64,000 nt of DNA from Bryobacteraceae bacterium (GCA_019748195.1 JAIEPW010000029.1:1-64000); one strand, 5' to 3'. Positions 21,985 through 35,203 are shown, counted from the first letter of the stretch. A program made the numbers and translations. Notes: generated from the sequence alone by a model not told the origin.

Positions 21985-22266
21985 TCAGCCCTGCACCGTC
22001 TCCCAGGCTTCCTGATCCAGATCCTCGAAGCTCACCTTGCAGGATCCGGGCGTGGAGATATGCTCGATTCTCGCCGTGCCGTTCTCGTCCAGAAAGCCCT
22101 TCACGACTTTGCCGTCCGGCAATTCCACCCGGTATTCCTCCCAGGGGAGGGGTTTACCGTCCTCGCCGATTAGCTGGATCTCGATCCAGTGGGGTTTCGG
22201 CTGGTCCGGTCGCGGGCATCGCAGGAATGCCGATCCCACATCACGGCTGCTGAACGCGTTAGGCAA
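21985..22266 (-). CDS. small beta-sandwich protein, contractile-injection-satellite type
   Basis: This 93-residue protein contains WIEIQLIGEDGKPLPWEEYR and, after a LPDGKVVKGFLDENGTARI stretch, ends with CKVSFEDLDQEAWE. The pattern is that of a small carboxypeptidase-regulatory-like beta domain found next to VgrG/PAAR or other contractile-injection effectors in several phyla, by my recollection of the family. The gene overlaps the upstream gene by 8 bases. No VgrG, sheath or baseplate gene is in the window, so this would be a remnant or an orphan module. Confidence 0.5.
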   Translation of the reverse strand: MPNAFSSRDVGSAFLRCPRPDQPKPHWIEIQLIGEDGKPLPWEEYRVELPDGKVVKGFLDENGTARIEHISTPGSCKVSFEDLDQEAWETVQG

Positions 22267-22606
22267 CGCTTTCCGCCTTTCGTTCGCGGCTCCAGGCGTG
22301 CAGCCGTTCCAGCTTCACCTCCGGCGGAACGCCGTGAGCCAACAGAACGTTCAGAGCCGGCTTAGGCAGGTCGGAAGGCGACGGCTTCCCCTGGATCTGG
22401 TAAAGGAGTTCGCAGTAGCGGGCGACGTCGCGCTCACTGGTGATGTCGAATCCGTTCGCCGAGTCGATCGCGCCGGGCACCTCCGCCTCCAGCCGCGCCC
22501 GCGAAACTCCGGCAGTTTCTTCCAGATGCCGGCAAAGCCTTCGTTCAAAATCTTCCCTCGCCGCGCGGGACAACGCTTCCACCTGCTCATTTTTGATCAG
22601 CAACAT
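22259..22606 (-). CDS. small helical protein, contractile-injection-satellite type
   Basis: This 115-residue all-helical protein opens with MLLIKNEQVEALSRAARED and has the recognisable block GFDITSERDVARYCELLYQ around residues 52-70. Proteins with a similar block (GITxERDVARF) occur beside VgrG-type effector genes and are thought to be adaptors or chaperones; this link is from memory, not search. It forms a two-gene unit with the beta-sandwich protein that follows. No membrane segment or signal peptide is seen. Confidence 0.5.
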   Translation of the reverse strand: MLLIKNEQVEALSRAAREDFERRLCRHLEETAGVSRARLEAEVPGAIDSANGFDITSERDVARYCELLYQIQGKPSPSDLPKPALNVLLAHGVPPEVKLERLHAWSRERKAESVA

Positions 22607-23098: not shown

Positions 23099-24511
23099 AT
23101 GGCGAAAGACTCTCGATCGACACTTGTCTCACTGGCTGTCAACCCTGTTACACTGCTCGGAGTCGTGCTCACGACGACCGGGGGAGTCCTGTGGCTGATC
23201 CTCACAGCTCTCGAGATTTTCGACACCGTTAACAATCCCTACGTGGGCATCCTGCTGTTCGGATTGCTCCCGGCGATCTTTTTCGCGGGTCTCGCCCTGA
23301 TCCCGATCGGCATCTGGTGGCGCCGCAGGCAGATGGCGGCCGCCGGACGCAGGGTTGAGCCGCTGGCCATCAACTGGCAGAACCCAGCGTGGCGGAAGCT
23401 GGTGATCGTCTTCACCGTGGCCACTGTGGCCAACCTGATCATCGGCTCCAGTTTTCTGCTGGCGGGCGTGCATTACATGGAGTCCAACAACTTTTGCGGT
23501 GCGGCATGCCATGTGATGTACCCGGAAAACGCTCAATACCGGATTTCCCCGCACTCCAACGTGGACTGCGTCGCGTGTCACGTGGATGAAGGGCTCGGCG
23601 GTTTCATTCAGGCCAAGACCAACGGGACGCTGCAGTTGATCCACACGGTATTCAACTCTTATCCGAAGCCCGTCCCTACTCCGGTTCACAATCTGCCCCC
23701 GGTGGAGCACATGTGCCTGAAGTGCCATTCGGTGAACCAGAACTACGGGTCACAGGTGATCGTGCGCAAGGGCTTCGCGGAAGATGACGGCGCCGCCACC
23801 GCCACCGTGCTCAACATGCACGTAGGAGGCGGCGCAAATAACAAGGGCGCGCATGGAGCGCACCTGAACGCAGTGACCATGGAGTATGCTTCCGACGAAA
23901 AGCGCGAGAAGATCGCCTGGGTCCGCATGCGCCGCGCCGACGGCTCGGTCCGCGAGTACGCCACTCCGGACTGGAACGCAGGCAAGCGTACCGGACTTGA
24001 GACGCGCACGATGAGCTGCGTTGACTGCCATAACCGCGCGGCGCACTCGTTTGAATCGCCGGAGCGCGCATTGAACCAGGCGATGGTCCTGGGCCGCATC
24101 GACCACACCCTGCCGGGTATCCGGAAGCGGGGGATCGAGCTCCTTAAGGCGACCTATGCCAGCCATGAGGTCGCCAGGCAGCAGATTTCCACCCACCTGG
24201 CCGACTACTACGTGAAGAACCACCCGGCGGTGGCCAAGGACCGCGCCAAGCAGATGGACCAGGCTGCCGCCGCCCTGTACGACATTTACTCTCGCAACGT
24301 CTGGCCGCAGTACAACCTGACCTGGGGTTCCCGTGTGAACCACCTGGGCCATAACGATTCGCCCGGCTGCTTCCGATGTCACGGTGGGGATCTGACCTCG
24401 GCGGACGGGCTGCAGATCACGCAGGATTGCTCCGTCTGCCACGAAGCCGTGTCGATGGATGAAAAGAATCCGGAGATTTTGAAGACGCTGGGGTTGGCCC
24501 AGCAGAAATGA
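23099..24511 (+). CDS. inner-membrane NapC/NirT-type multihaem cytochrome c, ImcH-like
   Basis: A 470-residue quinol-oxidising cytochrome candidate. Three membrane helices lie at about residues 17-41, 49-75 and 101-128. The remaining residues (about 134-470) face the periplasm and carry six haem sites: FCGAACHVM (spacing CX3CH, first haem), CVACH, CLKCH, CVDCH, CFRCH and CSVCH. The three-helix layout recalls Geobacter ImcH rather than CymA or NapC, which have one helix. In such proteins electrons pass from menaquinol to periplasmic cytochromes. A GAGGG sequence precedes the ATG. It heads the cluster containing the MtrC-, MtrA- and MtrB-like genes, so it is the likely electron entry point. Confidence 0.85.
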   Translation: MAKDSRSTLVSLAVNPVTLLGVVLTTTGGVLWLILTALEIFDTVNNPYVGILLFGLLPAIFFAGLALIPIGIWWRRRQMAAAGRRVEPLAINWQNPAWRKLVIVFTVATVANLIIGSSFLLAGVHYMESNNFCGAACHVMYPENAQYRISPHSNVDCVACHVDEGLGGFIQAKTNGTLQLIHTVFNSYPKPVPTPVHNLPPVEHMCLKCHSVNQNYGSQVIVRKGFAEDDGAATATVLNMHVGGGANNKGAHGAHLNAVTMEYASDEKREKIAWVRMRRADGSVREYATPDWNAGKRTGLETRTMSCVDCHNRAAHSFESPERALNQAMVLGRIDHTLPGIRKRGIELLKATYASHEVARQQISTHLADYYVKNHPAVAKDRAKQMDQAAAALYDIYSRNVWPQYNLTWGSRVNHLGHNDSPGCFRCHGGDLTSADGLQITQDCSVCHEAVSMDEKNPEILKTLGLAQQK

Positions 24512-24620
24512 GTTTATGATACGATTTTTGCTTTATCAAGAAGCCTGAGCTGCCCGGAAGATCCGCTGGGCCCGGATCGAACCGGCAGCATGGGTGTTTT
24601 TGGAGGGTTGGTTGCACACT

Positions 24621-26750
24621 ATGAATCCAAAAATGTTCAAACTTCTGCGATGGACGGCCGCCGGTGCTGTTCTCGGCACCGCGGGCCTGGTGATGGTGGC
24701 CGCGGACGACGACGTCAAGTCACCGTTCCAGGCCTTTGACAAGGCCTATTACCTGAGCGAGAAGGACGCTCAGTTCATTCGTCCCGGCCTGCGCTTCGAG
24801 TTGTCCAACCCGGTTGCGGCGACCGACGGAACCGTGTCGGTGGACGTGAAGATCACGGACCCGCGAGGCGCGGGACTGGACCGGCTGGGCATTGATACGC
24901 CCGGTACAATCGGCGCCACTTTCGTGATCGCCCGCATTCCCCGTGGCGAGACCAAGTACGTCTCCTACATTACCCGGATCGACGGGCCGAGCCCGACCTC
25001 CGGACGCCGCGAGACGCAGGCGACCGGGGAGAATAACGGGACCTGGACGCCCAAGGGCAACGGCAATTACACCTATACTTTCCGAAACCGGCTTCCCACC
25101 GGGTATGACCGGACGGTAACCCACACGATTCACCTGTACGGCAACCGCAACCTGACGGAGTTCGATCTGGGTACCGATACCGCCGACACGGTGATCAATT
25201 TCGTTCCGGACGGCAGTCCGGTGACGGTGGTTCGGGACATCGTGCCGCAGGAAGCCTGCAACCGATGCCACGGCCAGTTGACGGCGCACGGCACAACGGG
25301 CCGCCGCTCGGTGGCGGGTTGCATCACGTGCCACACGCCGCAAACCGTGGACGCGGGCACCGGCAACTCCGCCGACATGGCCATCATGATCCACAAGATC
25401 CACATGGGCCGTGACCTGCCGAGCGTGAAGGCGGGCACTCCCTACAAGTGGGAAGCCAACCAGAATCGGATCGTGGACTTCTCGCACATCGGGTATCCTC
25501 CGGGGCCCTCTCCGAACGTCGGGACTCGCGCCTGCGAGACCTGCCACTACAACTCTTCCCAGACGCCGCCGGCGGGCCTGGAGCAGCGGCGGAATCACCT
25601 TAACAAGCCCACCCGCGCCGATTGCGGATCCTGTCATGACAATGTCAACTTCGCCACCGGCGCCAACCACGCCGGGATCATCCAGTTGAACGATAACAGT
25701 TGCTCGCGCTGCCACATCGCGGAAGGCGAACTGGAACTCGATGTGTCGGTCAAGGGCGCCCATACGATCATGCGGGCCAACGGCGGTCCGGGCGGCTGGT
25801 TCACGCAACAACTCGACGGCCTGCGGTTCACCATCGACCGGGTGACCAACTCGCAGCCCGGCCAGCGGCCGACGGTGCAGTTCACGGCCAAGAACTTCCG
25901 CGGTCTGTCCATTCCGATGGCGCAGATCGACCGCCTGGCGCTGAACCTGATCGAGCGGCGGGGCGCGGACAACGCCCGCTTCTGGTCGGAAGATCCGCGG
26001 GCCACCGCGCAGTGCGCGCAGGACGGCACGTGCTTATACACCTTCACGCAGGCGATCCCGGCGGATGCCCGGGGCACGTGGTCGGTGGAGATCGAAGGTT
26101 ACCGCAACAAGGTCATCTTTCCCGGCACCGAGAAGCAGGTGACGGTGGGTGACGCCGGACTCGCCGTGGTGCGCGAGTTCGGAGTGACGGATGCTACTCC
26201 TGTGCCGCGTCGCGTTGCCGCGGAGTACGCCAAGTGCAACAACTGCCACCTGCAGATGTCGTTCCACGGCGACAATCGCAACCTGCTGGATTCGTGCACC
26301 TCGTGCCACAATCCGACGCAGACCGACATTGCCCGCCGTACCGCGGCGCAGCAGCCGGCAGAGTCCATCAACATGAAGGAGATGATTCACCGCATCCACC
26401 TCGGCGCCGGCAATCAGCGGGAGTATACGCTGTACGGCCGCGGCGGACCGGTGAACTTCAATCAGGTGGTGATGCCGATGGGTCAGCAGCAGCTTGCACA
26501 GTGCGAAACCTGCCACCGGCCGGGTGAATTCAACCTGCCCACGGAGCAGGGTTTGCTGCCGACTAACGATCCTCGCAATCCGTTCTTCACCACCGTGCCG
26601 CCGGGTACCGGCGCGTGCCTGTCGTGCCACCAATCGCAGTTCGCGGCTGCCCACGCCAAGCTGAATACCGATCCTCAGCTCGGCGAAAGCTGCCTGGTTT
26701 GCCATGGACCGAATTCGACGTATTCGCCGGCTCGAGTCCATGCCCGTTAA
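24621..26750 (+). CDS. OmcA/MtrC-family decahaem cytochrome c
   Basis: A protein of about 709 residues with ten CXXCH sites in two blocks of five: haems 1-5 (CNRCH, CITCH, CETCH, CGSCH, CSRCH) at residues 213-365 and haems 6-10 (CNNCH, CTSCH, CETCH, CLSCH, CLVCH) at about 539-695. Each block is preceded by a beta-rich domain, which is the four-domain layout of MtrC and OmcA. These act as terminal reductases on the cell surface. The N-terminus is a signal sequence without a lipobox cysteine, unlike the lipoprotein MtrC, so anchoring must differ. I chose the ATG at 24621; a TTG at 24612 nearer GGAGGG is an alternative. It overlaps the next gene by 11 bases. Confidence 0.88.
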   Translation: MNPKMFKLLRWTAAGAVLGTAGLVMVAADDDVKSPFQAFDKAYYLSEKDAQFIRPGLRFELSNPVAATDGTVSVDVKITDPRGAGLDRLGIDTPGTIGATFVIARIPRGETKYVSYITRIDGPSPTSGRRETQATGENNGTWTPKGNGNYTYTFRNRLPTGYDRTVTHTIHLYGNRNLTEFDLGTDTADTVINFVPDGSPVTVVRDIVPQEACNRCHGQLTAHGTTGRRSVAGCITCHTPQTVDAGTGNSADMAIMIHKIHMGRDLPSVKAGTPYKWEANQNRIVDFSHIGYPPGPSPNVGTRACETCHYNSSQTPPAGLEQRRNHLNKPTRADCGSCHDNVNFATGANHAGIIQLNDNSCSRCHIAEGELELDVSVKGAHTIMRANGGPGGWFTQQLDGLRFTIDRVTNSQPGQRPTVQFTAKNFRGLSIPMAQIDRLALNLIERRGADNARFWSEDPRATAQCAQDGTCLYTFTQAIPADARGTWSVEIEGYRNKVIFPGTEKQVTVGDAGLAVVREFGVTDATPVPRRVAAEYAKCNNCHLQMSFHGDNRNLLDSCTSCHNPTQTDIARRTAAQQPAESINMKEMIHRIHLGAGNQREYTLYGRGGPVNFNQVVMPMGQQQLAQCETCHRPGEFNLPTEQGLLPTNDPRNPFFTTVPPGTGACLSCHQSQFAAAHAKLNTDPQLGESCLVCHGPNSTYSPARVHAR

Positions 26751-27624
26751 GTACATCCTTGCCGCCATGGCGCTCCTTACCGGGAGCGCCATGGCGCAAA
26801 ATCTTCCGCCGGGGTACGCCGGAAGCGATACCTGCGCGGGTTGTCACGAAGAGGTTTCCAAGGCTTTCAAAGCCAACGCGCACGTGCGCGTGGACCAGAA
26901 GAGCCGCTTCAAGATGGAGAACCTCGCCTGTGAAAGCTGCCACGGGCCGGGGCAGGAGCACGTCGAATCGGGCGGCGACAAAACCAAGATCCGGCTGCTG
27001 AAGGAGGCCGGACGCATCGAGGTGAATGAAAACTGCCTGAAGTGCCACGCCACCAGCCCCAGCATGCGGGGTCATCAGATCGGCCAGCACTACCGGGCAT
27101 CGCTGTCCTGCACGGATTGCCACTCGGTTCACTCCGCCAAGGGACGCAAGCTGATCAACGCGGCCAACTCGACAGACCAGTGTTCCAGTTGCCACACAGC
27201 CGCCAGAGCACAGTTCAACCGGCCGTTCCGGCACCGGCTGCAGGAGGGCTCCATCGGTTGCGTGGATTGTCATCAGCCGCATGGCGAGCGCCCGCCGGTG
27301 CATCTGCAGCGGCTGGCCGCCAATAACGAACCGGGATGCTTCCGCTGCCACAGCGACAAGCGCGGACCGTTCCCGTTCGAACACGCGCCCGTTCGTCTCG
27401 AACCCTGCTCCTCGTGTCATGAACCGCACGGCAGCGCCAATCCCAGGATGCTGAACCGGCACACGGTCCAGCAACAATGTCTGGAGTGCCACGCAGGCAC
27501 CCTGAACACGATGGGGGGTGCTCCGCCCGCGTTCCACGACCTGCGCAGCGCGCGGTTCCAGAATTGCACCACCTGCCATCAAAAGATCCACGGCTCGTAC
27601 GTGAGCAAGGGGCTGCTGCGATGA
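26740..27624 (+). CDS. MtrA/DmsE-type periplasmic decahaem cytochrome c
   Basis: A 294-residue protein with a signal peptide (1-20, ending AMAQ) and ten CXXCH motifs from residue 32 (CAGCH) to 276 (CTTCH), spaced about every 25 residues. Length, haem number and even spacing match MtrA and DmsE, which plug the outer-membrane barrel and relay electrons across it. The start at 26740 is chosen because the signal peptide begins there. The gene overlaps the upstream decahaem gene by 11 bases and shares an ATGA overlap with the barrel gene, so the three proteins are made together. Confidence 0.9.
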   Translation: MPVKYILAAMALLTGSAMAQNLPPGYAGSDTCAGCHEEVSKAFKANAHVRVDQKSRFKMENLACESCHGPGQEHVESGGDKTKIRLLKEAGRIEVNENCLKCHATSPSMRGHQIGQHYRASLSCTDCHSVHSAKGRKLINAANSTDQCSSCHTAARAQFNRPFRHRLQEGSIGCVDCHQPHGERPPVHLQRLAANNEPGCFRCHSDKRGPFPFEHAPVRLEPCSSCHEPHGSANPRMLNRHTVQQQCLECHAGTLNTMGGAPPAFHDLRSARFQNCTTCHQKIHGSYVSKGLLR

Positions 27625-29612
27625 GATTCTCCCTTGCGGTGTGGGTTCTCGCCGCATCCGCGATCGCCCAGGAACCACCGAAGCCGGCTGACGCCAACCC
27701 TCCGCGGACGAAGCCGCAAGCGGCGAAGCCCGACGCAGCCAAGCCCGCCGCGGGAGCCGACTACACCATCGACGGCGAGTTCGACGTTCGCTTCCGCTGG
27801 CTCAGCGATCTGAAGGGAAATGAGAACGTCTATCGCAGCGTAGTCAACCTCGGCGAGGGCGTCCGCCTGTTCAACGGGGCCGTTCGCTACTCCGCGCCGG
27901 ACAGCAAGGTGCTGGACCAGTTAAACATCTTCGCCAACGGCTGGGGCGGTGACCCGTGGACCAACACCCGCGTGGACGGCCGCCGCAACGGCGTTTACGA
28001 GTTCAATATCGACTACCGCAACGTTGCCTATTTCAACAATCTGCCCATCTTCGCCAACCCGCTTCTGGGCAACGGCGTCCTGTTCAGCCAGCGCGCCTTC
28101 GACACCCGGCTGCGCCAGGTGGACGCGGAGTTGCGCCTGTTTCCGAGCGCCCGCATTTCCCCGTTCGTCAGCTTCAGCCGCGGCATGCAGCAGGGAACCG
28201 GCATCGTGCCGTTTGTCGGCGAAGGCAACGAGTATCCGGTGGGTACCGAGTACGATAACGCGCAGAACCTGGTCCGCGGCGGCGTCCGCATTCAAGGCGC
28301 GAAGTACAACGCGACGTTGGAAGGCGGCTGGAGCGACTTCTACGACGACCAAAGCGTGGGCTACTTCGGACCGAACAATGGCAACCGCCTGACCCCGTTC
28401 TTTGGACGCAACCTGCGGCTGTTCAGCGTCCAGCAGCGCTATAACGTCGAGGGCGACGGCCCGTTCCTGCGGGCGCTTCTGCAATACCGGCCATCCAACT
28501 GGTTGAGCGTCAACGGGCAGTTCACGTGGGTACAGCCGTCGATCCGGGCCACCTCGCAGTCCGACGCCGCCGGAAGCTTTTTTTCCCGAGAGCTTGGACT
28601 GCCATTCAACACGTTCATCGAGAATACCACCGGACGCGCGCTGCGCCCGTTCCCGTCCGGGCTGATCAGCGCGGAGTTCAGTCCGGTGCGTCGTGTGCGC
28701 GTAATTCAGACGTTTTCCACGGACCGCTTCAATATTTCTCAATTCGCGAATGTCCGCCAGCAGGAATCGGGCGCGACCCCGGCGGCCGCCGTCGACAACG
28801 CGATCTACAACCAGCGCCTGTTCCTGAACTGGAATCGCTTCGAGATCCTGGGTATTTGGGAGGCCACCAGCATCCTGAGCCTGCGCGGCGGATTCCGCTA
28901 CACCTGGGGCGATGCCGAGGCGCCGGCGGCTGTCACGCCGGTCGCTTCGACGAACCGCGGAGAGATCCGGCTTCCCGCCGTCCTGGCGGGCGCGACGTTG
29001 CGCTTCGGCTCGAAATGGAGCGGAGCATTCGACTTTGAAGGCTCGCAGGGCGATCGCCAGAACTTCTTCCGCACCAGTTTGCTCGAATATAACAAGGGCC
29101 GCGCGCAGGTGCGCTATCGCTTCAGCCAGGCTCTGAACATCAACGTGCTCTACAGCATCCTGGATAACCGCAATCCCAACCCGGCCATCCGGCTGGATAC
29201 GCGGATCCAGAACGCGTCGGCGGGCTTGAACTGGACGCCCGGCGACGGGCAGAGGGTGAACTTCACGGGTGAGTACACCTACTCGTCCTGGCGCAACAAT
29301 ATCGATACCATCACGCTGCCGCTCTTCGGCCGCCAGACGGTGCTCTATCGCGATTTCGGCCACCATGCCAACGCCTTCGTGGACCTCCGGGTCGTGCGGC
29401 AGGCAAGGCTGAATCTGGGGGGTTCGTTCTCCATCAACAACGGATCGCTACCAACGCGGCTGTATCAACCGGTGGTCGGTCTTTCGGTACCGTTCTACAA
29501 AAAAATCGGCTTCATCGGTGACTGGAGATTCTTCCAGTACACCACCAATCAGTTCCGCTTCCAGGACTTTCAGCGGCACGCGATTTCGGCCGGCTTGCGC
29601 ATCGGCTTCTAG
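27621..29612 (+). CDS. MtrB-like outer-membrane beta-barrel (porin-cytochrome conduit)
   Basis: A 663-residue protein with a signal peptide (1-16) and a Pro/Lys/Ala-rich linker (about 17-45). A long run of alternating aromatic and polar strands follows and ends in IGF, the terminal aromatic residue recognised by the BAM machinery. Size (MtrB is about 700 residues) and position immediately after an MtrA-type gene point to the barrel sleeve of a porin-cytochrome conduit. The CXXC motif near the N-terminus of Shewanella MtrB is not seen. Sequence similarity between such barrels is usually low, so the call rests on fold pattern and context. Start and upstream stop overlap as ATGA. Confidence 0.8.
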   Translation: MRFSLAVWVLAASAIAQEPPKPADANPPRTKPQAAKPDAAKPAAGADYTIDGEFDVRFRWLSDLKGNENVYRSVVNLGEGVRLFNGAVRYSAPDSKVLDQLNIFANGWGGDPWTNTRVDGRRNGVYEFNIDYRNVAYFNNLPIFANPLLGNGVLFSQRAFDTRLRQVDAELRLFPSARISPFVSFSRGMQQGTGIVPFVGEGNEYPVGTEYDNAQNLVRGGVRIQGAKYNATLEGGWSDFYDDQSVGYFGPNNGNRLTPFFGRNLRLFSVQQRYNVEGDGPFLRALLQYRPSNWLSVNGQFTWVQPSIRATSQSDAAGSFFSRELGLPFNTFIENTTGRALRPFPSGLISAEFSPVRRVRVIQTFSTDRFNISQFANVRQQESGATPAAAVDNAIYNQRLFLNWNRFEILGIWEATSILSLRGGFRYTWGDAEAPAAVTPVASTNRGEIRLPAVLAGATLRFGSKWSGAFDFEGSQGDRQNFFRTSLLEYNKGRAQVRYRFSQALNINVLYSILDNRNPNPAIRLDTRIQNASAGLNWTPGDGQRVNFTGEYTYSSWRNNIDTITLPLFGRQTVLYRDFGHHANAFVDLRVVRQARLNLGGSFSINNGSLPTRLYQPVVGLSVPFYKKIGFIGDWRFFQYTTNQFRFQDFQRHAISAGLRIGF

Positions 29613-32006: not shown

Positions 32007-33374
32007 TCACCGGGCCGGAAAGCGCCGCGCGAGGTATTCGAGGATGCCTTCGCGGTGCTCCGGCTTCACATTCGCGCCCCAGCGGACCATCTTGTCTACC
32101 TCGCGCTCCCACTGGGCGCGCGTCAGACGCTGTTGCGACATCATCAGCTCGTCGTGGCACGTAAGGCATGCGCCGCGATAGCCGTCCGGTAACGCGGGCG
32201 CGCCCGGCTGCGGGGCGGCCTCCCGCGTCAGCATTTCGGGTGCGGCGGCCACTCGGGCATCCACCTGGTGGACGACGTTCCAGTAGTAGCCGGACGGATT
32301 CCATTCCTGCGCGAACGGTTGCGCGTCGCCATTTGCCGCATAGGCGCGAGCCGATATCTTGGCGCCGCCGGTCTGGCGCGGGGTCCATGCCAGGCTCCAG
32401 GGGATGAAGCCAAAGCGACTCCCGGGGGAGAGCTTAGCCGGGATCCAACTCCCGCCACCATCCACCGAGACTTCCACGCGATCCACTTTCGCCAGATCGC
32501 CCGCCCATGCCGCACCTCGAATCAGGGTGGGCTTGCCTGCCACCAGCACCGGACCCCCGGTGCGCGGCGCGGCGACGACGCTTTTCACCTTGAGACTCGT
32601 CACCGGCGACATCTGCGCCGGATCCACCGCAGTCCCGGGCGGAACTGCTTTACCTGGATGGCGGTACGCCGTTTTCATAAAGAAACCGTCGAACTCGGCT
32701 GTCCGAACTTCAACGTGGCGAAGCCACTTCATCCAACAATCGCCCGCCCAACCTGCCGCAACCACGCGCAGCGGATAACCGTGCGAGGCGGGCAGCGGCT
32801 TGCCGTTCATCTCGTAGGCCAGCAGCGTGTTCGGGTCCATCGCCTTGGCCAGCGGCACTCCGCGCTGGAACTTGGGCATCGATCCTACCGGTTCGTCGCA
32901 ACCGTCGAACAGGACTTCGATGGCCCCCTCTCGCACACCTGCGAGCTTCAAAACGTCCGCCAGCCTCACCCCGGTCCACTGGGCATTCCCCACGCCGCCG
33001 TACTTCCACTGCAATCCGGGCATCGACGGCTCATACAATCCGCGGCCGTTACCGGCGCATTCCAGCACGGCGGCCAAGTCCACTCTCGGCAGTCTCCGGA
33101 TTTCGCCGAAAGTGAGTTTCAACGGCTTGGCCACGGCGCCGCCGATCTCCAGCCGCCATTCCTTCAGGTCCACGCGAGGCGTGTAGTGGTGGGAGCGGAC
33201 AAAGAAGCGGTCGATGGGCGTGATTTCGTCGAGAAACCCTTCGAGGGGCATCTCGTAGTCTTCGGGACGCCGCGAAAGCACGATCATGTCGCCGCGCTTG
33301 GCCTGACCGGCGGCAAAGGAGGAGACGAGGGGCGCCGCGGCCAAACCCATCAGGGCCCGGCGGGAAAGCTTCAT
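32007..33374 (-). CDS. sulfite-oxidase-family molybdoenzyme fused to a monohaem cytochrome c
   Basis: A 455-residue protein with a Tat-type signal (SRRALMG at residues 4-10), a sulfite oxidase molybdopterin domain and a C-terminal haem domain. The Mo-coordinating cysteine is Cys106 in AVLECAGNGRG. The dimerisation domain follows to about residue 390. Residues 403-455 hold CLTCH and a short helical segment (AQWEREVDKMVRWGA) like the separate SorB subunit of bacterial sulfite dehydrogenase. The start at 33374 is set by a 4-base ATGA overlap with the kinase gene. Electrons from the Mo site would exit through the covalently joined haem. Sulfite as the substrate is inferred, and periplasmic location follows from the signal. 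Confidence 0.82.
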   Translation of the reverse strand: MKLSRRALMGLAAAPLVSSFAAGQAKRGDMIVLSRRPEDYEMPLEGFLDEITPIDRFFVRSHHYTPRVDLKEWRLEIGGAVAKPLKLTFGEIRRLPRVDLAAVLECAGNGRGLYEPSMPGLQWKYGGVGNAQWTGVRLADVLKLAGVREGAIEVLFDGCDEPVGSMPKFQRGVPLAKAMDPNTLLAYEMNGKPLPASHGYPLRVVAAGWAGDCWMKWLRHVEVRTAEFDGFFMKTAYRHPGKAVPPGTAVDPAQMSPVTSLKVKSVVAAPRTGGPVLVAGKPTLIRGAAWAGDLAKVDRVEVSVDGGGSWIPAKLSPGSRFGFIPWSLAWTPRQTGGAKISARAYAANGDAQPFAQEWNPSGYYWNVVHQVDARVAAAPEMLTREAAPQPGAPALPDGYRGACLTCHDELMMSQQRLTRAQWEREVDKMVRWGANVKPEHREGILEYLARRFPAR

Positions 33375-35203
33375 TGATTCCATTCTATGTTCTGGCTGCG
33401 CAATTCGCCGTCGCCGAGTTGCACGGTGAATTGCTGGCGCTGCGCTCCGAGCGTTACGACGATCGTGTGCGAACCCACGGGCAAAGTCAGCGTCGTGGGT
33501 GTTTTCTCGGAATGTTCCTTGCCGTCGATGAGGATTGTGCTGCCCGGCGGATTGGTGGTGAGACGCAGGCGTCCCACCATGCGAATCAGGTCGACCGTAA
33601 GCGACTTGTCGGCGGGTGCGTCGATGATCCGCTGGGCGTCCCGATGGCCCTCCAGCTTGAAGAGCGCGGCGTGGCGGCCCTTGGTCAGCGGGAGCGCGCA
33701 GGGGGTTACACAGCTCAGTTCGGCGTTGCCGTCCACTGTGACCGTTGCTCCGGGAGGCGACGAGACCAGGGCGAACTCAGCCGGACCGCCCGGTTGGGCC
33801 GCGTCGGGTACGACCGGCGTGACTGAGCCGGGCTTCGACGGATCCGGTTTCGGCCTGTCCACCTGAGCCGTACCGCCCGGTTTGGGCCGGCCTGGTTTCA
33901 CCGGTTCCGGCTTGGCGGGCTCCGTCTTAACGGGATCCGACGTCGGCTCCACCACCGGCGGAGGAGCCGTCATTTTTTGATAGCCGATATAGCCGCCCAC
34001 GAGCAACACCAGCACGCCGGCCGCCAGCATCGCATTGCGGACCGTGTTGCTTTCATGCTCCTCGATGCGCTGCCGCGCCGGCGCGGCGGGCGGTGCGGGC
34101 TCCCTCGCGGCGGATTCCGCCGGGCGTAATTCCGCCATGGCCTCGCGGGGAGCGATGCGGGTTTCGTCCTGCGGATTTGGAGCGGGCTTGGCGGGCGCTT
34201 TCGGTACCGCCACCTCCTCCTGCGTAGTGCCGGTGTCGGGGAGTTTGGGCGCCGGTACAACCGCCAGGGTCTCGTCATTCTCCGAAAGCTTGGAAGCCGC
34301 CGAGTCCGACATCTGCTCGCCCGCGGTAGGAAGGTTCGCGCTGATCCCCCGCGGCAGCGGCTGCCAGTCCTTGTTCAAGTTCAGCGCCGTGGCCAGAGCC
34401 TCGATGAAATCCGTGCAGGTCTGGTAGCGATCCTTGGTTTCCTTCGCCAGCGCCTTGCGCAAAACGCCGTCCACTTGAGCGTGCAGCGTCGGGTTCAGGC
34501 GCTGCGGCGAGCCAGGATCTTCCTTGACGATCTTGAAAAGGAGCGTCGGCAGATACTCGGCCGAAAACGGCTTCTCGCCCGTTAGAACCTCATAAGCGAT
34601 CACCGCCAGCGCCCACTGATCCGCGCGGCCGTCCACGATGCCGCCATAGATCTGCTCCGGCGACATGTAGGTGGGCGTGCCCATCATCATGCCGGTCTGG
34701 GTCATCTGCTGGGACACGATCTTGGCGACTCCAAAGTCGGTGACCTTGGCGGAGCCGTCCTCGTGAATCATGATGTTCGCCGGCTTGATGTCGCGGTGAA
34801 CAATGCCTTTTTTGTGCGCGTAGTCCAGCGCCGCGGCCACCTGCCGGAAGATGCTGAGCAGCGTCTCCTTGCTGGGTGTCTGCTCCGCCTCCAAGACCTT
34901 TTCGAGCGGCGGACCGTTGACGAACTCCATGAAGATGTACGCCAGGCCTTCGTGCTCGGCGATGTCATAGATCGTTACGATCCCGGGATGGGACAGAATT
35001 CCAGCGGATTGCGCTTCCCGGAACAGACGCTCCCGCAGCCGGTCTCTTTCGGCTGTTTCGGTAAGGTCCGCCAGGCGGATGCTCTTGATGGCGATCTGCC
35101 GCCCGATATGCGGATCCTGGGCTAGATACACCACACCCATGGCACCGCGACCGAGTTCCCGGCTGATCTTGTACCGCCCGATCTGTTCCACGCTTGGAGT
35201 CAT
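33371..35203 (-). CDS. transmembrane Ser/Thr protein kinase with two C-terminal PEGA domains
   Basis: A 610-residue Hanks-type kinase. The catalytic domain (about 11-285) has the glycine loop GRGAMGVV, Lys40 in IAIKSI, Asp138 in IVHRDIKPANI and DFG at 156-158. A Pro/Ala-rich linker follows, then a membrane helix at about 405-425 (MLAAGVLVLLVGGYIGYQ). After a Lys/Pro-rich stretch there are two PEGA-like beta domains (FALVSSPPGATVTVDG and LRLTTNPPGSTILIDG). I chose the ATG at 35203; an upstream one adds unrelated residues. It may sense an envelope signal. Its last bases overlap the Mo-enzyme gene, so the two are co-transcribed and perhaps functionally linked. Confidence 0.88.
   Translation of the reverse strand: MTPSVEQIGRYKISRELGRGAMGVVYLAQDPHIGRQIAIKSIRLADLTETAERDRLRERLFREAQSAGILSHPGIVTIYDIAEHEGLAYIFMEFVNGPPLEKVLEAEQTPSKETLLSIFRQVAAALDYAHKKGIVHRDIKPANIMIHEDGSAKVTDFGVAKIVSQQMTQTGMMMGTPTYMSPEQIYGGIVDGRADQWALAVIAYEVLTGEKPFSAEYLPTLLFKIVKEDPGSPQRLNPTLHAQVDGVLRKALAKETKDRYQTCTDFIEALATALNLNKDWQPLPRGISANLPTAGEQMSDSAASKLSENDETLAVVPAPKLPDTGTTQEEVAVPKAPAKPAPNPQDETRIAPREAMAELRPAESAAREPAPPAAPARQRIEEHESNTVRNAMLAAGVLVLLVGGYIGYQKMTAPPPVVEPTSDPVKTEPAKPEPVKPGRPKPGGTAQVDRPKPDPSKPGSVTPVVPDAAQPGGPAEFALVSSPPGATVTVDGNAELSCVTPCALPLTKGRHAALFKLEGHRDAQRIIDAPADKSLTVDLIRMVGRLRLTTNPPGSTILIDGKEHSEKTPTTLTLPVGSHTIVVTLGAQRQQFTVQLGDGELRSQNIEWNQ

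Follow-up and report, generated by a model that had tools for sequence, protein, structure and literature searches.

Four consecutive plus-strand genes in a Bryobacteraceae genome very probably encode a complete wire running from the inner membrane to the cell surface, and we consider it likely that they form an outward extracellular electron-transfer (EET) pathway. An imcH-like gene lies directly upstream of mtrC, mtrA and mtrB in the window, by which we mean the whole 64,000-nt stretch of DNA analysed (GCA_019748195.1 JAIEPW010000029.1:1-64000). The features discussed here, in window positions, are:

23099-24511, plus strand: imcH-like inner-membrane hexahaem quinol cytochrome, 470 aa, five CX2CH motifs and one CX3CH (CGAACH)
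24512-24620, plus strand: imcH-mtrC gap, 109 nt from imcH stop to mtrC start
24621-26750, plus strand: mtrC/omcA-type decahaem surface cytochrome, 709 aa, ten CX2CH motifs, no lipobox
26740-27624, plus strand: mtrA/dmsE-type decahaem cytochrome, 294 aa, ten CX2CH motifs
27621-29612, plus strand: mtrB-type outer-membrane barrel by fold, 663 aa, zero haem motifs and zero cysteines
32007-33383, minus strand: sulphite-oxidase-type molybdenum enzyme (Oxidored_molyb) with a C-terminal CLTCH haem motif

All four genes lie where a first-pass annotation of this DNA had placed them; its total of 26 c-type haem motifs was reproduced on recounting (6 + 10 + 10), and its proposal of an acidobacterial source agrees with the named relatives, which belong to Bryobacteraceae/Bryobacterales. 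Both gene overlaps that it described are present: mtrA begins 11 nt within mtrC, whose start is the ATG at 24621 (an alternative GTG lies at 24594), and mtrA and mtrB share the 4 nt ATGA. By these overlaps and their conserved order, mtrC, mtrA and mtrB are adjacent genes forming one unit. In the 109-nt gap between imcH and mtrC, a scan of the plus strand picked up nothing resembling a promoter or a terminator, which is compatible with a single transcript but no proof of one. Upstream of imcH, two small overlapping genes of 115 and 93 aa occupy window positions 21985-22606 on the minus strand; a Pfam scan of both returned no match.

The two decahaem proteins are assigned by family models. The OmcA/MtrC model of NCBIfam (TIGR03507) scores 437.7 bits on the second protein against a cut-off of 209.3, and its relatives in the PDB are MtrF, OmcA and MtrC. 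The third protein scores 239.2 bits (cut-off 192.2) with TIGR03508, a model named DmsE that covers MtrA too. From residue 27 to residue 291 this protein aligns end to end with 6r2q_A, which is MtrA in the solved structure of the Mtr complex (E 4e-39); that chain is labelled cystathionine beta-synthase, a name at odds with its ten haem motifs, and we read the label as an error for MtrA. The TIGR03507 and TIGR03508 scores, together with the same gene order in dozens of related genomes, place the locus far beyond chance. Apart from those of the CX2CH motifs, MtrC (61 sequences) and MtrA (72 sequences) each have exactly ten invariant histidines, amounting to one distal ligand per haem, as in wires rather than enzymes; all haems of both proteins are thus predicted to be able to be bis-histidine ligated. 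The first cysteine of the window MtrC occurs no earlier than residue 213, and none of the family MtrCs compared has a convincing lipobox following its hydrophobic N-terminal segment, as judged by eye with a simple pattern.

The barrel is the least familiar component by sequence. The first-pass annotation had named the absence of a family match for this gene as grounds for abandoning its reading, and at the sequence level that absence is literally what was found: Pfam MtrB_PioB (PF11854) stays at 13.4 bits, below its cut-off of 23, an NCBIfam scan gave no match, and PDB sequences searched with a 39-row barrel profile gave none either. The objection is overturned by structure. An AlphaFold model built from the same 39-row alignment (pLDDT 84, about 28 strand segments) has MtrB of the Mtr complex, 6r2q_B, as its best fold match among 350,542 PDB chains (E 8.6e-14, TM 0.69/0.70), the next-best matches being TonB-dependent receptors with TM of about 0.4. 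The barrel is therefore of MtrB type by predicted fold only. Of the four families that the annotation had put forward for HMM searches, NapC/NirT, OmcA_MtrC and DmsE exceed their cut-offs and MtrB_PioB does not; its Mtr-type outer part accordingly stands on family models for MtrC and MtrA, and for the barrel on fold but not on sequence.

The published description of ImcH comprises three N-terminal transmembrane (TM) helices, an adjacent CX3CH, 5-9 CX2CH motifs and a NapC/NirT-like core (PMC6295460). The product of the first gene agrees with every one of these sequence criteria and is predicted to be an ImcH, so that the earlier label of ImcH-like was well chosen. Hydropathy gives three TM segments, the predicted model places helices at residues 16-40, 47-82 and 96-127, the CX3CH (CGAACH) at residue 133 adjoins the third TM helix, and five CX2CH motifs follow the published range. 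Pfam NapC/NirT (PF03264) scores 33.9 bits against a cut-off of 24.1; NrfH is the best PDB match by sequence (E 2e-5) and, weakly, also by fold (probability 0.99, E 0.07, TM 0.48 of NrfH). Three TM helices and six haem motifs rule out CymA as the identity of this protein. All family homologues compared carry exactly five CX2CH and one CX3CH, and share the invariant residues M140, H152, H252, H255, H316, H418 and K173; M140 and the five histidines are six candidate ligands for what would be six haems, each possibly pairing with one. A CHxM-for-CHxxM signature in ImcH that seemed tied to mtr adjacency was dropped, since three changes in the tree and too few independent pairs underlie it.

The combination of an ImcH-like entry protein with Mtr-type outer parts had been called unusual. 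Against the literature this is correct, as no imcH in the 2018 survey had mtrAB/mtoAB as a neighbour (PMC6295460) and Group 5 mtrCAB was reported to lack any inner-membrane quinone oxidoreductase nearby (Baker et al. 2022, PMC8805035); yet within Bryobacteraceae the arrangement recurs. We surveyed the neighbourhoods of 80 named loci with flanks of up to 10 kb. Several contigs are short, so the counts are lower bounds: imcH occurs within the flanks of mtrCAB in at least 20 of the 80 loci, and a tetrahaem gene follows mtrB in at least 56. In 12 genomes of at least 5 genera, imcH, mtrC, mtrA and mtrB form a tight unit, in this order, that lacks the tetrahaem gene: the window's genome and 11 others (genus g5: G004, G077, G527, G533, G536, G537; g14: G013, G082; g55: G517, G518; g71: G544). 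In G014, G033 and G083, imcH directly follows mtrB instead. In the ImcH tree, linkage to mtrCAB (18 of 77 rows) appears in several parts and requires 10 changes, at least 5 of them on starred branches, compared with 16.4 when shuffled; either gains or losses could account for them. The imcH-first arrangement takes 3 changes on the MtrCAB tree, of which at least 2 are forced. An AU test does not reject one origin shared by the window operon, itself a long branch, and the ten members of the tight clade (p 0.19).

The best indication that ImcH passes electrons on towards MtrA via c7-type haems comes from another genome of the family (G063:C1, locus L056 11320-13980), where an 887-aa open frame between mtrC and mtrA fuses ImcH to four trihaem c7 domains. 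This fusion carries 18 haem motifs (17 CX2CH and one CX3CH), 12 of the haems making up its wire part. No second ImcH-c7 fusion was seen among the sampled genomes; matching trihaem domains occur in 23 genomes besides G063. At six loci a CbcL-like protein with nine haem motifs and a b561-type membrane part (family scan of L034) adjoins imcH near mtrCAB (L034, L050, L086, L091, L092, L119).

To count the outer half of the wire across the family, 170 Bryobacteraceae genomes of at least 90% completeness were searched for the barrel at a threshold of E 1e-40. It was detected in 124 of these near-complete genomes and in 57 of 64 genera, that is, in about three quarters of Bryobacteraceae. A sample of 101 genomes contained mtrC in 80 and imcH in 82, and the C-A-B gene order is conserved across the family. 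Across the phylum the barrel is sparser: about a dozen further families gave strong matches, and the class's other family yielded weak ones only. One genome, putatively Paludibaculum fermentans P105T (G571), carries mtrC-mtrA-mtrB and the tetrahaem gene; this strain is a described dissimilatory Fe(III) reducer (PMC8407742). A Bryobacteraceae-type mtrA-mtrB pair of 33% identity also appeared on a contig labelled Candidatus Sumerlaeaceae (L123), a placement that is probably a binning error or a transfer.

Separately, the window's own genome holds a second porin-cytochrome pair, without MtrC (G000:C86, locus L149 2-9783):

L149 6848-7801: decahaem MtrA-like cytochrome
L149 7690-9783: barrel

This pair lies directly behind Tad/T2SS-type pilus genes, namely a T2SSE ATPase and two T2SSF genes, and also ahead of it are a 1003-aa beta-propeller protein and a small outer-membrane barrel. 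The same order of gene sizes and the same ATPase P-loop, GGTGAGKT, recur in G063 (L059), G099 (L060), G055 (L061) and G092 (L063); the arrangement was not seen in L062 or L064. Together, L149 and its relatives suggest a pilus-linked MtrAB operon.

From these assignments we propose the following route. By its family, ImcH would oxidise menaquinol in the inner membrane and feed its six haems, from which electrons would reach MtrA at its periplasmic end, whether the two proteins touch directly or a carrier whose gene lies elsewhere shuttles between them. Homology and fold suggest that the ten bis-histidine haems of MtrA cross the outer membrane inside the MtrB barrel and hand electrons to the ten-haem surface protein MtrC. 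The acceptor that MtrC reduces outside the cell could be Fe(III)/Mn(IV) oxides, humic substances or something else. MtrC, MtrA and MtrB are proposed to form a complex that would transfer electrons across the outer membrane, and menaquinol is the presumed quinol. Outward flow to iron or manganese oxides or humics is most likely the direction and destination. Points against this pathway are the barrel's want of an MtrB sequence match, an MtrC that has no lipid anchor, and the failure to find a dedicated periplasmic carrier: searches of the window's genome returned no tetrahaem Group 5 cytochrome at E 0.001, no c7 multidomain protein and no convincing CbcL-like gene, the sole match to the last being the window's own mtrA. 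A self-contained, hard-wired route made up of ImcH and MtrCAB, with ImcH contacting MtrA itself and no freely diffusing carrier between them, is unlikely though conceivable; the G063 fusion could be its extreme form, a single molecule bridging the periplasm. Because aerobes are numerous among described acidobacteria, the conduit need not serve respiration. The window's genome also encodes a cytochrome c552 (NrfA-type) with an NrfH-like neighbour and a pentahaem protein that by eye resembles the ActA subunit of alternative complex III, and EET is thus probably not the organism's only respiration.

The same haem chain might instead serve fermentative electron disposal or surface redox chemistry with humics, metals or reactive oxygen, uncoupled from growth; we regard this as possible but doubtful. 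P. fermentans couples Fe(III) reduction to sugar fermentation (PMC8407742), and 33 of 61 MtrC sequences, the window's included, possess a cysteine pair in domain III (CX5C in 32; the remaining 28 have neither cysteine), where the CX8C pair of Shewanella MtrC is an oxygen switch (PMC9973256). Against this reading, the position of imcH beside mtrCAB implicates the quinol pool, and with it respiration. Inward electron flow, with Fe(II), minerals or a partner cell as the donor, is a good deal less probable. The MtrA/MtrB homologues PioAB and MtoAB run inward (PMC8805035, PMC6831781, PMC12016527), and the conduit proteins are in principle redox-reversible; however, those systems are described as two-part, whereas the window encodes an MtrC/OmcA-type surface cytochrome, its inner-membrane partner is ImcH-type, a protein whose role in metal oxidisers the 2018 survey left open (PMC6295460), and the cultured relative with the same outer cluster, if G571 is rightly assigned, reduces Fe(III) (PMC8407742). 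Finally, a DMSO-type extracellular respiration, in which DmsEF would serve a terminal reductase at the surface, is highly improbable: the match to a model named DmsE and the molybdopterin enzyme about 2.4 kb downstream would favour it, but that model name covers MtrA too, the third component is MtrC, the downstream enzyme has a sulphite-oxidase fold rather than that of a DmsA-type reductase and lies on the opposite strand behind a penicillin-amidase gene, and the DmsE reading was rejected because a DmsA-type gene is absent beside the cluster.

Outward electron transfer through ImcH and MtrCAB remains our preferred reading. MtrCAB of Bryobacterales is already known as Group 5. Previous genome studies either concluded that the acidobacteria they covered lack a complete mtr/omc operon (Eichorst 2018, PMC5900883) or reported only five acidobacterial MtrCAB hits (Baker 2022, PMC8805035). 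What is new is imcH directly beside mtrCAB, a pairing that two surveys had reported absent (PMC6295460, PMC8805035), together with its recurrence, the fusion of ImcH to a haem wire and the family-wide count. The pairing suggests, for this clade, how electrons enter the Group 5 conduit. Bryobacteraceae are common soil and wetland acidobacteria; if the barrel count reflects working conduits, most of them can exchange electrons with minerals or humics. P. fermentans offers a cultured strain in which part of the proposed pathway is testable.

Among known systems, Group 5 MtrCAB (Acidobacteriia/Bryobacterales) is closest, with the same bacterial family and the same three outer genes. In its five hits a tetrahaem cytochrome always lies downstream of mtrB (PMC8805035); the window instead has imcH directly upstream, the tetrahaem gene was not found in its genome, and by gene content it is a variant of Group 5 rather than a typical member. 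That survey also reported no mtrC duplicates (PMC8805035), a statement contradicted by tandem mtrC copies beside mtrAB in 2 of the 80 Bryobacteraceae loci, L093 and L049 (the latter the same contig region as L101). The imcH homologues of the 2018 survey lacked adjacent mtrAB/mtoAB (PMC6295460), compared with 109 nt between imcH and mtrC here. Like ImcH of G. sulfurreducens and its homologues, the window protein combines three N-terminal TM helices, a neighbouring CX3CH and a NapC/NirT-like core, with five CX2CH motifs where the G. sulfurreducens protein has six (homologues, 5-9). With Shewanella MtrCAB (6r2q) the window shares the end-to-end MtrA alignment, the MtrB barrel fold and two pentahaem domains in MtrC, but its barrel is cysteine-free and only 12% identical to MtrB in the fold alignment, its MtrC has no lipobox where that of Shewanella is lipid-anchored, CX5C stands in place of CX8C, and its entry protein is ImcH, with three TM helices and six haem motifs, rather than CymA, with one helix and four haems. 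PioAB and MtoAB have the decahaem cytochrome and barrel in common with the window and, unlike it, are described without MtrC.
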